Positions 24,576 to 63,517 of a stretch of 64,000 nt of DNA are shown here, one piece after another. The notes beneath the pieces are model-generated. The model did not search any database. It was not told the DNA's origin and worked only from the letters and a program-made list of their open reading frames with translations. Each line of letters starts with the position of its first letter. Position 1 is the stretch's first letter. This DNA comes from Alphaproteobacteria bacterium (GTDB taxonomy: Bacteria; Pseudomonadota; Alphaproteobacteria; Micavibrionales; Micavibrionaceae). Made by a program: the position numbers and the translations under genes. Location: NCBI GenBank assembly GCA_017999645.1, contig JAGNLJ010000005.1:62001-126000 (forward strand). The letters are read 5' to 3'.

Positions 24576-25364
24576 ATGGGCAGCCGGATCGCCCTGATTG
24601 GCTGCGGTAAAATGGGACACGCCCTGCTGGATGGCTGGGTTAAGTCAGACATAAAATCAATTATCGTTATCGAACCTTCCGGCATTAAAGGCGCGCCGAA
24701 ATCCGTGCGCGTTTTAAAAAAACCCGGCAAAGAACTGAAAAATTGCGACGTCGTCGTTCTGGCTGTGAAACCGCAGGTCATGAACGAAGTCTGCAAATCG
24801 CTGAAACCTTTTGTGGCAAAGGACGCGCTCATCCTCTCTATCGCCGCCGGACGTTCTATCAATGGATTTAAAAAACTCTTCAGCGCATCTCAACCCGTCA
24901 TCCGCGCCATGCCGAACTTGCCCGCCTCCATCGGCAAGGGCATCAGTGTCGCGGTCGCCGATTCAAACGTAAAACCCGCGCAGAAAAAAATCGGCGCGCA
25001 ACTTCTCGCCGCCGCCGGGCACGTCGAATGGGTGAAAAACGAAAAACTGATGGACGCCGTCACTGCAATTTCCGGCTCCGGCCCCGCCTATGTCTTCCAT
25101 TTAATTGAAACACTCGCGAAATCAGGCGAAAAAGCAGGCCTCGGCAAAGCCCTTTCCATGACCCTCGCAAGGCAAACAATCATCGGCAGCGCCGCGCTGG
25201 CAGACGCCGACAAAACCGACGCCGCCATCTTGCGCAAAAACGTGACATCACCCGGCGGCACAACAGCCGCCGCGCTGGAAATCCTTATGAACGGGGAAAT
25301 GCAGAAAATTTTCGACCGCGCAATTCAGGCGGCAAAAAAACGCTCGAAGCAATTGAGTTCCTGA
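24576..25364 (+). CDS. proC: Pyrroline-5-carboxylate reductase
   Basis: Catalyses the last step of proline synthesis using NAD(P)H. The 262-residue product has the Rossmann loop IGCGKMGHALLDGW, AVKPQVMNEV, the RAMPNLPASIGKG segment, SGSGPAYVFHLIE and the ProC signature region ILRKNVTSPGGTTAAALEIL. Third gene of the ubiK-ybjN-proC set; the stop is followed at once by a family 1 repeat. Confidence 0.95.
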   Translation: MGSRIALIGCGKMGHALLDGWVKSDIKSIIVIEPSGIKGAPKSVRVLKKPGKELKNCDVVVLAVKPQVMNEVCKSLKPFVAKDALILSIAAGRSINGFKKLFSASQPVIRAMPNLPASIGKGISVAVADSNVKPAQKKIGAQLLAAAGHVEWVKNEKLMDAVTAISGSGPAYVFHLIETLAKSGEKAGLGKALSMTLARQTIIGSAALADADKTDAAILRKNVTSPGGTTAAALEILMNGEMQKIFDRAIQAAKKRSKQLSS

Positions 25365-25367
25365 ACC

Positions 25368-25438
25368 GTCATTGCGAGGAACGTAGTGACGAAGCAATCC
25401 ATTCTTTTCTGGATTGCTTCGCTATCGCTCGCAATGAC
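25368..25438. repeat. Palindromic intergenic repeat, family 1, copy 2
   Basis: CGTCATTGCGAGGAACG ... CGAAGCAATCCA, then TGGATTGCTTCG ... CGCTCGCAATGAC. The arms are inverted copies, so the 71 bases form one hairpin between convergent proC and mucR and may serve as a terminator for both. Confidence 0.88.
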
Positions 25439-36447: not shown

Positions 36448-36558
36448 CGTCATCCCCGGCAGTGAGCCGAAGGCGAGCGTGAACGGGGAACCAGTACTTA
36501 AATGCCGCGAAGCGGCCTGCCGTACAAAAACCGGATCCCCGCACAAGGCGGGGATGAC
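36448..36558. repeat. Palindromic intergenic repeat, family 2 (CGTCATCCCC type), copy 1
   Basis: CGTCATCCCCGGC at the left is mirrored by GCGGGGATGAC at the right, with inner parts CGCGAAGCGGCCT and AAAACCGGATCCCCGC. It ends ten bases before coaBC and so sits in its leader. Confidence 0.8.
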
Positions 36559-36567
36559 AAAGTGAAG

Positions 36568-37791
36568 ATGGAAAGAACTTTAGAAAACAAAAACATTCTC
36601 CTCGTGATCTCGGGCGGTATCGCCGCCTATAAATCGCTGGAACTCATCCGCCTCATCCGTAAATCGGGCGGCACTGTCCGCTGCATCCTCACTTCCGGCG
36701 GCGCGCAGTTCATCACACCGCTCTCCGTCTCGTCACTTAGCGAAAACGAAACCTATACCGATCTTTTCTCGCTCAAGGACGAAACCGAGATGGGCCACAT
36801 CCGCCTCTCGCGCGAGGCCGATCTCATCGTCGTCGCACCCGCCAGCGCCAACATGATCGCGAAACTTTCAAACGGCATCGCCGACGATCTCGCAAGCACC
36901 GCGTTACTTGCGGCGAACAAGCAAATCCTCCTCGCGCCCGCCATGAATCATAAAATGTGGAACAACGCGGCGACGCAGGACAATCTCGAAAAACTCAAAT
37001 CGCGCGGCTTCAAATTCGTCGGCCCCGTCGAAGGCGACATGGCCTGCAATGAATTCGGCATGGGCCGCATGGCCGAGCCCGAAGAAATTCTCCGCTCCAT
37101 CTTCTCGTTTTTTTTTGAACAGCCGTTGATCGGCAAAACCGCCATCGTCACCTCCGGCCCGACCTTCGAGCCCATCGATCCTGTCCGCTTCATCGGCAAC
37201 CGCTCCAGCGGCAAACAGGGCCACGCGATCGCGCAAGCCCTTCTTGAATCCGGCGCATCCGTTACACTCATCTCCGGACCTGTGAATGAAAAACCGCCCG
37301 CCGGAGTCAAACTCATCGAAATCGAAACCGCGAATGAAATGCTCGCCGCTGTCGAGAAATCCTTGCCCGCAGATATCTTCATCGGCGCAGCCGCGGTAAG
37401 CGACTGGTCGCCCGCCCCGTCCGCGCAAAAAATAAAAAAGCAGCCCGGCAAACCCGCGCCCGCGATTAATCTCCGCGAAAACCCCGACATCCTCAAAACC
37501 ATGGCGAACCACCAAAAGCGCCCCGCCCTCGTCGTCGGCTTCGCGGCGGAAACTGAAAACCTCCTCGAAAATGCGAAATCCAAGCTGAAATCCAAGGACT
37601 GCGACTGGATTATCGCGAATAACGTCTCCGAAAACCTGTTCGGCAGCGATGAGAATCAGGTATATCTGGTTACATCCACATCGACTGACGAATGGAAAAA
37701 ACAGGGCAAGCGCGCCGTCGCGCAAAAACTTGCCGCAAAAATCGGGGAGCACTTCACCAATGTTCGCAAATTCAAGGAAGCGGCAGAATAA
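36568..37791 (+). CDS. coaBC: Bifunctional PPC decarboxylase / phosphopantothenate-cysteine ligase
   Basis: A 407-residue CoA-synthesis enzyme. The N-terminal CoaC flavoprotein part has [19 protein letters not shown], the [20 protein letters not shown] region, the PAMN motif, and [12 protein letters not shown] with the catalytic Cys. The C-terminal CoaB part has [22 protein letters not shown] and a C-terminal substrate loop. ATG 36568 is used; an in-frame ATG at 36502 lies inside the repeat. The dut gene overlaps its 3' end. Confidence 0.95.
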
Positions 37792-38875: not shown

Positions 38876-41581
38876 ATGCGTAAAACAGCGCTGCAAACGG
38901 CGCCCCGAACGGGATTAAAGACTGCTGAAGACTTCGTTGCCGACGGCCACACGCCGGTCATGGCACAGTACCACGCGCTGAAGGAACGCCACCCGGGTGC
39001 CCTGCTCTTCTACCGCATGGGCGATTTCTACGAACTCTTTTACGACGACGCCATTAAGGCCTCCGCTGCACTCGACATCACGCTGACCAAACGCGGCAAG
39101 GCGAACGGCGACGACATCCCTATGTGCGGCGTGCCGTTCCATTCCTGCGATCCGTACATTGCAAAATTGATCCGCGCCGGGTTCAAGGTCGCGATCTGCG
39201 AACAGACCGAAACACCGGAAGAGGCCAAGGAACGCGCCAAGCGTGAAGGCCGCCCCGCATCGAAGGCAATGTTGAATCGCGAGGTCGTGCGCATCATCAC
39301 GCAGGGCACACTCACCGAAGACACGTTACTTGAGGCACGCGAGAATAACTACCTCGCCGCCCTCGCCGAAACCGGCGGCCAGTTCGGCCTCTCATGGCTG
39401 GACCTATCCACCGGCGCGTTCAACGTGCAGGCGGTAAAGAAAAATGAAGCCCTGACCGCACTCGAAAGAATAAATCCGAGCGAAGTTATTGTCTCTGACA
39501 AACTCCCTCTCCCTCCGGGAGAGGGTCGGGGTGAGGGACTTTTTACAATCCAGCCACATTCACTCTTCGACTCCGAAAACGCACGTATCCGCCTTGAAAA
39601 ACTCTTCGGCGTCGGCACGCTTGAATCCTTCGGCGGTTTCTCCCGCGCTGAAATCGCCGCTGCCGGCGTGCTCATTGATTACGTCGAGCGCACGCAGGTC
39701 GGTAAAATGCCGTACCTGCAAAAACCGCAGCAGGTCGCGTCAGGATCAAATCTCGAAATCGACGCCGCCACGCGCCGTAACCTTGAACTCACCCGCACGC
39801 TTGTAGGCGAACGCCGCGGCTCGCTATTGGATATAATCGACCGCACACTCACCGGCCCCGGCGCGAGGCTATTACAATCCTGCATTTCCGCGCCTCTCGC
39901 TGACGCCAACGAAATCAACGCCCGCCTCGACCGCGTCACAATATTCGTAAACAATTCAAATCTGCGCGACGATATCCGCGCCGAACTCAGGCAACTCCCC
40001 GACATGGAACGCGCCCTCGCGCGGCTAAATCTTGGACGCGGCGGCCCGCGCGATCTCGTCATGATCCGGGACAGCCTCAAACAAACCGCCATGATCCGCA
40101 GCCTCCTGCAAACAAATCCGCAGGAACCGCTGGGTGCCATCACCAAAACACTCTCTGCCACACCGGAAATTTCCCGCCTGCAGGATATTTTAAAGCAAGC
40201 CTTGGTCGAGGAACCGCCCGCTCTCGCCCGCGACGGAGGCTTCATCGCCCCCGGTTATCACGCGCGGCTCGACGAACTCAAAACATTGCGCGACGACGCC
40301 CGCCGCCTTATCGCCACGCTCCAGACCAAATACCAGGACCACACCGGCATCGCGGGCCTGAAAATAAAATTCAACAACATGCTGGGTTACTTCATCGAGG
40401 TCTCCGCCAAAAACGCCGATTCCATGATGGTGAAGGCGTCCGACGGCTCCAACCCGTATATCCATCGCCAGACCATGGCCGGGGCCGTCCGCTTCACCAC
40501 CCCGGAACTGGCAGAACTCGAACGTGACATAACATCCGCCGCCGAAAAGGCTCTCGCTCTCGAGCTTGAGATGCTTGCGCAACTCACGGACGAAACGCGG
40601 AGCTGCTCCGAGGAGATTATTTCCCGTGCTAGCGCCCTCGCCGCCCTCGATATGGCCGCCGCTCTCGCCGATCTCGCGGTTGATCGTAATTACACACGGC
40701 CCATTCTCGATAATTATCTCACTTTTGAAATCAAGGGCGCGCGCCATCCCGTTGTAGAAGCTGCACTAAAACAAAACAGCCAAACCTTCGTCCCGAACGA
40801 TTGCGACCTTAACGACACGCAGCGTCTCTGGCTGCTCACCGGCCCGAATATGGCTGGTAAATCAACTTACTTACGTCAAAATGCTCTAATCGTGGTTCTG
40901 GCGCAGGCCGGGTCATATGTTCCCGCCGAATCCGCTCATATCGGCATCGTCGACCGCCTCTTTTCCCGCGTCGGCGCGTCTGACGATCTCGCCCGGGGCC
41001 GCTCGACATTCATGGTTGAAATGGTTGAAACCGCCGCCATTCTGAATCAGGCCACAAACCGCTCCCTCGTCATCCTTGACGAAATCGGCCGCGGCACCGC
41101 CACCTTCGACGGCCTCTCCATCGCCTGGGCCTGCGTCGAGCACCTGCACGAAATTAATAAATGCCGGGGCCTCTTCGCCACCCATTACCACGAACTCGCC
41201 TCGCTCACGTCCAAACTCCCCTCCCTCTCCCCACACTCGATGCAGGTCAGGGAATGGAAAGGCGACATCATCTTCCTCCATTCCGTCACCCCCGGCAGCG
41301 CCGACCGCTCCTACGGCATCCATGTCGGCAAACTCGCAGGCCTGCCCGAATCCGTCATTGCTAGAGCACAGGAAGTCCTCACCCTGCTCCAATCCGGCGA
41401 GCAATCCGGCGCGCTCTCGAAACTGGCCGACGATCTGCCGCTCTTCAACGCCAGCGCGAAGGCCCCGCCAAAATCCTCCCCGCTCGAGGAAAAAATAAAT
41501 TCCATCGACGTTGACGCGCTTTCCCCGAAAGAAGCGTTGGATATCCTGTATGAACTCAAAACCCTCGGCCAGAATGATTAA
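38876..41581 (+). CDS. mutS: DNA mismatch repair protein MutS
   Basis: A 901-residue MutS. The mismatch-binding domain I has MGDFYELFYDDA (Phe-x-Glu motif in FYE); domains II-IV follow; the ATPase has the Walker A loop GPNMAGKST (about 656-664), the signature stretch DDLARGRSTFMVEM and the Walker B LDEIGRG. Within domain II, after VSDK, residues 210-222 read LPLPPGEGRGEGL, encoded by a palindromic repeat of the kind otherwise found between genes; the frame is kept. The start at 38876 is an ATG. The stop overlaps the next gene by eight bases. Confidence 0.96.
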   Translation: MRKTALQTAPRTGLKTAEDFVADGHTPVMAQYHALKERHPGALLFYRMGDFYELFYDDAIKASAALDITLTKRGKANGDDIPMCGVPFHSCDPYIAKLIRAGFKVAICEQTETPEEAKERAKREGRPASKAMLNREVVRIITQGTLTEDTLLEARENNYLAALAETGGQFGLSWLDLSTGAFNVQAVKKNEALTALERINPSEVIVSDKLPLPPGEGRGEGLFTIQPHSLFDSENARIRLEKLFGVGTLESFGGFSRAEIAAAGVLIDYVERTQVGKMPYLQKPQQVASGSNLEIDAATRRNLELTRTLVGERRGSLLDIIDRTLTGPGARLLQSCISAPLADANEINARLDRVTIFVNNSNLRDDIRAELRQLPDMERALARLNLGRGGPRDLVMIRDSLKQTAMIRSLLQTNPQEPLGAITKTLSATPEISRLQDILKQALVEEPPALARDGGFIAPGYHARLDELKTLRDDARRLIATLQTKYQDHTGIAGLKIKFNNMLGYFIEVSAKNADSMMVKASDGSNPYIHRQTMAGAVRFTTPELAELERDITSAAEKALALELEMLAQLTDETRSCSEEIISRASALAALDMAAALADLAVDRNYTRPILDNYLTFEIKGARHPVVEAALKQNSQTFVPNDCDLNDTQRLWLLTGPNMAGKSTYLRQNALIVVLAQAGSYVPAESAHIGIVDRLFSRVGASDDLARGRSTFMVEMVETAAILNQATNRSLVILDEIGRGTATFDGLSIAWACVEHLHEINKCRGLFATHYHELASLTSKLPSLSPHSMQVREWKGDIIFLHSVTPGSADRSYGIHVGKLAGLPESVIARAQEVLTLLQSGEQSGALSKLADDLPLFNASAKAPPKSSPLEEKINSIDVDALSPKEALDILYELKTLGQND
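39503..39538. repeat. Palindromic repeat inserted in frame within mutS
   Basis: The 36 bases contain a core CTCTCCCTCCGGGAGAG, a hairpin of the type CTCTCCCT/AGGGAGAG, followed by GGTCGGGGTGAGGG. Such elements are common between genes in many bacteria. Here it lies within codons 210-221 of mutS and keeps the frame. Confidence 0.85.
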
Positions 41582-59739: not shown

Positions 59740-59793
59740 ACACCTGAATCCCCCAAAATGTTCTTGATTTGTTCTCTATCGGTGGCGTAGAAT

Positions 59794-59910
59794 CGTCATT
59801 GCGAGGAGCGCTAGCGACGAAGCAATCCATTTTTTTGTCTTCCACGCAAAAGCGGGATCTGGATTGCTTCGCGCAGTTTACCCCTGCGGAGGCGGGGGCT
59901 CGCAATGACG
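59794..59910. repeat. Palindromic intergenic repeat, family 1, composite copy 3
   Basis: CGTCATTGCGAGGAGCG at the left and CTCGCAATGACG at the right match copies 1 and 2. The right half is interrupted by CGCAAAAGCGGGATC and by CCCCTGCGGAGGCGGGGG, both resembling family 2 repeats, so one element appears to have been inserted in or merged with another. The right end overlaps the region just upstream of the polymerase gene. Confidence 0.82.
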
Positions 59911-63434: not shown

Positions 63435-63501
63435 TGTCACCCCCGCGAAGGCGGGGGTCCGGCAACCAAAAACCGGATGCCCGCCCAAGGCGGGCATGAC
63501 A
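63435..63501. repeat. Palindromic intergenic repeat, family 2, copy 2
   Basis: TGTCACCCCCGCGAAGGCGGGGG is followed by CCGGCAACCAAAAACCGG and then GCCCGCCCAAGGCGGGC ATGACA. It forms three hairpins in the 83-base gap after the gamma-lyase gene. Confidence 0.82.
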
Positions 63502-63517
63502 ATAACTAAGGAAAATT

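Follow-up and report, generated by a model that had tools for sequence, protein, structure and literature searches.

Introduction

BoxC repeats were discovered in the 1990s and were later called the PIT triplex motif; the available part of Holder et al. (2015; PMC4666352) offers no account of where they come from. Single-stranded TM_ECO, the Escherichia coli version, folds into a triplex in vitro (same paper), and 100 palindromes of the BoxC core are counted for Enterobacter sp. 638 in the excerpted part of PMC2869309. Here we analyse a BoxC copy that is read in frame within the mismatch repair gene mutS of a Micavibrionaceae alphaproteobacterium, in a stretch of 64,000 nucleotides (the window; GenBank assembly GCA_017999645.1, contig JAGNLJ010000005.1, positions 62,001–126,000), together with genes for nucleases of the DUF559 (YcjD) family, with which BoxC is associated. 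The copy resembles TM_ECO in its stem, loop size, linker, third strand and multicopy occurrence, and inverted pairs occur among the E. coli copies. In contrast to the mutS copy, the E. coli copies are described in the available part of the same paper by their neighbouring open reading frames (ORFs) and spacers, and no partner gene is named there.

Repetitive extragenic palindromic (REP) sequences and their associated tyrosine transposases (RAYTs) offer a close parallel to such a partnership. As in the BoxC case, short palindromes flank the gene of a DNA enzyme (in the GTAG class), form inverted pairs and occur in frame in repair genes (available part of Di Nocera et al., 2013; PMC3733652). BoxC differs from them in lacking the GTAG/CGTC tag, in bearing a third purine strand at its ends and in being paired with a predicted PD-(D/E)XK nuclease where REPs are paired with a tyrosine transposase. 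The same account places other REPs within repair genes and speculates on a mutator role; mutS has no match in its main text, the section to which this count refers. Rickettsia palindromic elements (RPEs) are likewise found in frame within protein genes, and RPE-4 and RPE-6 are assigned to the CGTC class among the R. conorii repeats (available part of PMC3733652). Homing endonucleases of the Vsr-like I-Bth0305I type share with DUF559 a nuclease fold, as predicted here from a structural model, and the habit of entering conserved genes, in one instance with empty sites in close relatives. Unlike homing endonucleases that reside in introns or inteins, DUF559 is inserted directly as an in-frame domain bounded by triplex hairpins.

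The explanation that best covers our observations, to which we give a probability of roughly 0.6, is that the mutS repeat, a BoxC element, would be tolerated and that BoxC elements would be either the ends of a mobile DUF559 element or short derivatives of these ends.

Results

A BoxC repeat is read in frame in mutS

The mutS gene (window positions 38876–41581, + strand) encodes 901 amino acids with complete Pfam MutS domains I–V. Within it, the 36 bases at 39503–39538 (+) form codons 210–221 and encode LPLPPGEGRGEG, followed by L, inside the Pfam MutS_II match (residues 158–281). The first-pass annotation had read the segment in this way and had taken the frame to be preserved, and the intact ORF with its five MutS domains bears this out. 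The repeat consists of CT, the palindrome CCCTCTCCC-TCC-GGGAGAGGG (39505–39525), TC and GGGGTGAGGGA. Its pyrimidine arm CCCTCTCCC (39505–39513, +) and purine arm GGGAGAGGG (39517–39525, +) form 9/9 pairs around the loop TCC. A class II triplex requires a third purine strand running antiparallel to the purine arm; in the third strand GGGGTGAGGGA (39528–39538, +), nine bases pair antiparallel with the purine arm, and 9/9 positions fit (G*G, A/T*A). Differences from E. coli TM_ECO copy 12 (CCCTCTCCCTTCCAGGGAGAGGGTCGGGGTGAGGGT) are confined to the loop and the last base. What had been recognized as a palindromic repeat of a kind mostly described from spacers is thus identified; comparison with the E. 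coli copies confirms that it is BoxC (PIT), which Holder et al. (2015) describe as an intrastrand-triplex motif.

The repeat had been expected to recur in its own genome, and it does: the window genome (2.06 Mb, 23 contigs; G000 below) holds nine copies of the core CCCTCTCCC-N(0–10)-GGGAGAGGG and three copies of the longer repeat pattern at up to three mismatches, and reversed versions of both patterns, used as a control, gave no match in it. All nine core copies have a third strand with at least 8/9 triplex matches within 45 nt, and eight of them score 9/9. A repeat search within the window listed no second copy of the mutS repeat and returned other families. It is because the sequence recurs in the genome that we regard the repeat as real, and not because of fold stability; its folding energy is unexceptional against dinucleotide shuffles (RNA z 0.02, DNA z −1.15).

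Several other identities were considered. A chance palindrome is excluded by the recurrence in the genome and the empty reversed control, and a mutS pseudogene by the intact frame, the complete domains and purifying selection (see below). A REP of the GTAG/CGTC type is excluded by the absence of the tag, as neither tetramer occurs on either strand at 39490–39545.

The repeat replaces residues of a variable MutS loop

Within the genus, three genomes were compared: G000, G002 (MutS identity to G000 93%) and G001 (90%). Among named records, from which 80 MutS ORFs were taken, nearly all of the most similar proteins are alphaproteobacterial, the best at 61%. MutS of G002 has SEIRTEK in place of the repeat. 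In G001, SSLILPLPDGERAGVRG at the same place is encoded by a BoxC copy in the same orientation as in G000, with a core 2 nt longer, which shifts the reading frame of the second half of the repeat. A genome of another genus (G088) also bears a BoxC copy in the mutS loop, slightly degenerate (8/9 stem pairs, third strand 8/9) and in the opposite orientation, and therefore most likely inserted independently of the copies in the genus.

We compared 106 MutS loops, 98 from the family and 8 from other families of the order (of the 104 family genomes sampled, 100 had a MutS match; L252, with no match, is not in the loop list). The repeat is present in 3/98 family loops, those of G000, G001 and G088, and in 0/8 of the others. 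No copy turned up when the 80 MutS ORFs of named records were scanned with a pattern that would overlook a repeat with the degeneracy of the G088 one; inspection of their loops by eye (all but L109) revealed no repeat either. The compared stretch measures 43–56 amino acids across the 106 loops (43 being a cut piece), most commonly 54, with 50 in G000 and 44 in G002. As the loop is naturally variable, the repeat substitutes for native loop residues and is not a plain gain of 12; a clean 12-codon insertion into a fixed frame is excluded by this variation in length. The first-pass annotation had expected the repeat residues to be absent from relatives and had counted a segment of similar length there as evidence against an insertion. 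The first expectation holds for G002 and fails for G001 and G088, and the second is borne out in part by the range of native loop lengths.

In an AlphaFold2 model of MutS (46 sequences), residues 210–221 lie between strands 203–207 and 223–226, with a mean pLDDT (predicted local distance difference test) of 54 for residues 211–220 versus 83 overall, in line with a loop position. Solved MutS structures, when aligned with the protein, show a segment of comparable length at this position, as does E. coli MutS. Residues invariant across the 46 aligned sequences (L007, which has an internal stop, and L177 were left out) include the nucleotide-binding stretch at about 655–664. With the loop excluded, lineage-unique mutS codons comprise 83 synonymous versus 9 non-synonymous changes in G000, 121 versus 45 in G001 and 77 versus 17 in G002. 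By these codon counts, mutS of G000 is under purifying selection, and at the sequence level the intact, constrained gene gives no sign of a mutator. The repeat would thus be a tolerated insertion and is not obviously a mutator change; a neutral, tolerated loop is the simplest reading, and we infer that the repeat is probably neutral for MutS.

There is an even chance that the G000 and G001 repeats go back to a single insertion in an ancestor of the genus, which G002 would since have lost or had overwritten, and not to separate insertions. They share place and orientation, and windows adjacent to the loop are somewhat more alike between G000 and G001 (0.71) than between G000 and G002 (0.61), though the latter pair is the closest over the whole gene; on the other hand, neither the stems nor the loops of the copies are equally long, and each copy resembles the copies of its own genome, 23-nt cores accounting for 9/18 in G001 and 0/9 in G000. 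A single ancestral insertion would concern history only and is compatible with the explanation we favour. In G004, a BoxC-like sequence lies upstream of MutS domain I (L033, about codons 71–130 of the open frame), perhaps within the N-terminal coding region of mutS.

BoxC copies are read in frame in other genes

The first-pass annotation saw a repeat that had become protein sequence, an event held to be rarely noted in such a gene. The in-frame reading stands; its singularity does not, as other genes carry in-frame copies. Among 62 distinct core sites examined (9/9 in G000, 3/3 in G002, 17/18 in G001 and 33 from 30 other genomes), 20 lie in one open frame with Pfam matches on both sides, or within a domain. 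These sites fall in mfd (two genomes), priA (two genomes, three sites), the 2-oxoacid dehydrogenase E2 gene (two), prmC, dxs, mnmA, mutS, yfiH, coaBC, dus (two), genes for a LysM-M23 peptidase and an EF-G-like GTPase, and DUF559 fusions with SufD and RimM (two); the gene names are our assignments from Pfam names. As only selected frames were scanned, 20 is a lower bound.

In coaBC of G001 (L160, 1548–3020), a helix-turn-helix (HTH) domain stands in frame between two inverted BoxC copies, and the window holds the corresponding empty site at 37096–37134 (+), according to a comparison by eye. The G001 arrangement suggests that BoxC can carry cargo other than DUF559.

Many DUF559 genes lie between inverted triplex hairpins

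DUF559 (PF04480) was singled out because several of the in-frame BoxC frames had this domain beside or between BoxC copies. The 104 family genomes contain 46 DUF559 copies at ≥80 bits, in 36 genomes (nine rows below 40 bits were dropped), and 355 copies of the BoxC core, in 45 genomes. The core is present in 31/36 DUF559-positive versus 14/68 DUF559-negative genomes (Fisher p 8e-11), with means of 8.7 versus 0.63 copies, and 0/20000 within-genus shuffles attain 31. When two other end types are added, repeats are found in 33/36 versus 16/68 genomes.

We then searched the 260 bp on either side of the DUF559 domain for hairpins under a strict triplex rule. The test began with 46 loci; L301 (no seed match) and L300 (weak) were left out, and L272 and L298, cut at contig ends, are not among the 44 copies with both flanks. 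A hairpin lies upstream of 37 of these copies and, in inverted orientation, downstream of 34; triplex hairpins are inverted on both sides in 30/44 and present as expected on at least one side in 41/44. Control windows 900–1160 bp away in the same loci gave 0/170 on both strands, mutS flanks 0/37 on each side, and the background of the rule is 3/1534 windows. Outside the family, we examined 35 loci, of which 29 are best matches, one per genome, from a 398-genome phylum sample, and the other 6 were hand-picked from 30 listed matches in a plasmid collection, including Deinococcus and cyanobacteria. Here, hairpins are found upstream in 19, downstream in 20, on either side in 27 and on both in 12, as compared to 2/138 control windows.

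Stem and third strand vary jointly. Among 81 unique flanks (of 100), the score of a stem with its own third strand averages 7.28 of 8, versus a mean of 6.61 and a maximum of 6.86 in 5000 shuffles, with 53 perfect matches versus at most 28; reading the third strand in parallel orientation gives 6.77 and 27 perfect matches. The layout around DUF559 thus persists across lineages while its sequence varies, and this three-strand covariation is natural evidence for selection on the triplex layout. In many upstream BoxC copies (e.g. L265), the bases that link the stem to the third strand form a small hairpin of their own (for example, GATCGAGCAACGCGAGATC).

DUF559 is inserted in frame in conserved genes

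Twenty-five of the 46 DUF559 copies share a frame with a Pfam domain of a host protein: PriA in 10, RimM in 6, a SufS-type aminotransferase in 4, and SufD, Mfd, TrpF, AroA and an IleS-type synthetase in one each. In PriA frames in which both domains are shown, the DUF559 insert separates the 3′ DNA-binding domain from the helicase. PriA of G001 has 902 amino acids with a BoxC-DUF559-BoxC′ insert, and the frame in G000 and G002 has 745 and no insert; identity between G001 and the other two is 94–95% after the site and 85–87% before it. This presence/absence evidence comprises one site in three genomes. Pfam listed no intein domain in the DUF559 fusions, whose frames read through, and no separate intron search was made.

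The PriA insertions of the family, in ten genomes (L285, L254, L255, L258, L272–L274, L277, L278 and L298), mostly occupy nearly the same linker, as judged by eye. The spacer before rimM is another recurrent DUF559-BoxC site (L265, L268, L281, L284, L287, L290, L291 and L296), with six of these eight loci fused to RimM, and the sufC/sufD, sufD/sufS and rimM/trmD junctions recur as well; the gene names at these junctions are presumptive, in part assigned from peptide ends.

In E. coli K-12, the gene annotated as DUF559 is ycjD (L337, 2540–3340). By eye, a degraded BoxC is present at its stop codon, and the BoxC that Holder et al. list as number 9 is found about 170–205 bp from the stop on the 3′ side; 0.004 BoxC copies are expected by chance within 260 bp of ycjD. 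A DUF559 gene with BoxC beside it even in this strain would make the origin of BoxC testable in the laboratory.

An AlphaFold2 model of the G000 DUF559 domain (pLDDT 88; 58 sequences, 15 of 73 domain references having been dropped) matches NGO0050 (3hrl) and the homing endonuclease I-Bth0305I (3r3p, E 6e-5) in Foldseek, and Vsr (1vsr) more weakly (E 0.03). Residues invariant in the 58 sequences include E15, D44, E55, D57 and H61. YcjD has been assigned to the PD-(D/E)XK group (available part of PMC1189080), and Caulobacter VsrA, a DUF559 protein, has been tied to DNA damage signalling (available part of PMC12907096).

Discussion

Based on these results, we suggest that a BoxC element entered mutS where the gene encodes a variable loop on the surface of the connector domain (domain II), and that it replaced native residues there. 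It would have been retained because the frame was preserved, no stop lay in frame and MutS tolerates change at this site. The repeat now encodes a Pro/Gly/Glu-rich loop, probably with little effect on repair; more generally, in-frame repeats of this kind would furnish new protein loops, here in mismatch repair. BoxC itself may represent the terminal inverted repeats of a mobile element of about 0.45 kb, or short non-autonomous derivatives of it, with the DUF559/YcjD nuclease (PD-(D/E)XK, Vsr/homing-endonuclease type) as its gene. As in the REP/RAYT pair, this nuclease would recognize the hairpin or triplex in the element ends, perhaps in the single-stranded state at replication forks, and would act in trans to mobilize complete elements as well as short copies. 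Both the nuclease as the mover of BoxC and the single-strand route are our inferences. We found no report linking DUF559/YcjD with BoxC in a literature search that left subscription journals and preprints largely outside its scope; the BoxC in mutS is an already named repeat.

We extend this explanation tentatively, at slightly less than even odds, to a widespread group: DUF559/YcjD genes with triplex-forming ends would be intein-less homing-type elements, in frame in linkers of essential proteins, and the BoxC/PIT repeats found in E. coli, in Neisseria, in cyanobacteria and elsewhere would, like the mutS repeat, be their ends or non-autonomous short forms. An unspliced nuclease gene in frame within PriA, RimM and Mfd would be an unusual form of selfish-gene persistence.

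A number of observations weigh against a mobile DUF559 element as the source of BoxC. Neither movement of DUF559 nor its action on BoxC was observed in this analysis of sequences and models, and Holder et al. (available part of PMC4666352) did not see a stable triplex in vivo. At the PriA site no target-site duplication is visible, and about 24 nt seem, by eye, to be replaced. Three of the 44 DUF559 copies (L263, L267 and L277) have neither expected flank, and ycjD has BoxC at its 3′ side only. Hairpins in the unexpected orientation occur upstream in 12/44 and downstream in 17/44, beside an expected one in 11/12 and 15/17 of these cases, respectively. On the DUF559 tree (44 rows; L298 and L299 left out), whose forks are weakly supported, insertion sites change 12 times versus a shuffled mean of 25.5; with sites clustering on such a tree, homing and repeated insertion are compatible with the pattern, which also fits vertical descent at the site.

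A prediction set beforehand, that other end types would be dispersed where a resident DUF559 gene bears such ends, was only partly met. It named G110, G066, G003 and G001 for type one, and G080, G081 and possibly G018 and G087 for type two. Type one is present in 4/4 named genomes versus 15/100 others, and type two in 4/4 versus 8/100, the latter with a pattern one base pair longer than noted. Also on the unfavourable side, the sole copies of the end type in G066, G110, G080 and G081 are the element's own ends, and type two is commonest (16 copies) in G003, which had been named for type one only.

The BoxC-positive genomes with no DUF559 match at ≥80 bits likewise count against a DUF559 mover, and they suit a passive origin, in which BoxC spreads by slippage or strand switching at triplex-induced breaks and DUF559 is a cargo or repair gene beside it. 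Such an origin would accommodate the HTH domain between inverted copies in coaBC, and Holder et al. (available part of PMC4666352) treat the instability of the motif with no dedicated enzyme. We nonetheless consider it unlikely, at about one chance in four, given the expected inverted hairpins on both sides of most DUF559 copies and given that other lineages show this arrangement with different stem sequences.

Still less probable is a reversed order of events, with DUF559 genes inserting into pre-existing BoxC dimers. Some insertion sequences are known to insert into REP units. Gene-free inverted BoxC pairs exist, several of them in the E. coli table of Holder et al. (available part of PMC4666352). 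Yet the empty sites of the G001 PriA insertion have no BoxC, and in G080, G081, G066 and G110 the end type occurs only at the DUF559 gene, where the ends would thus appear to move along with it. That the mutS insertion is adaptive, altering MutS activity and producing a mild mutator along the lines of Di Nocera et al.'s speculation on REPs in repair genes, is similarly improbable: in-frame BoxC copies also occur in mfd and priA of relatives, and REPs are reported in uvrA, uvrB, dnaE2 and recBCD (available part of PMC3733652), but non-synonymous changes are few in the window lineage, the predicted position is a loop, and genes outside repair (mnmA, dus, E2, rimM, sufD and dxs) are struck as well.

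Other repeat families in the window

Two further repeat families occur in the window. The second family, CCGGAT-CCCCGC..GCGGGGATGACAA, has copies at 36525–36560 and 63467–63502, the former upstream of the probable coaBC start (36568). An apparently related repeat, the likeness being judged by eye, lies in frame in dus of G001 (L191) and encodes the peptide RRKPGSGNLMPQTQPDSGLRRNDN. The third family, CGTCATTGCGAGGAGCG...GCAATCCATTTTT, is represented by three copies, at 863–910, 25363–25408 and 59790–59841.

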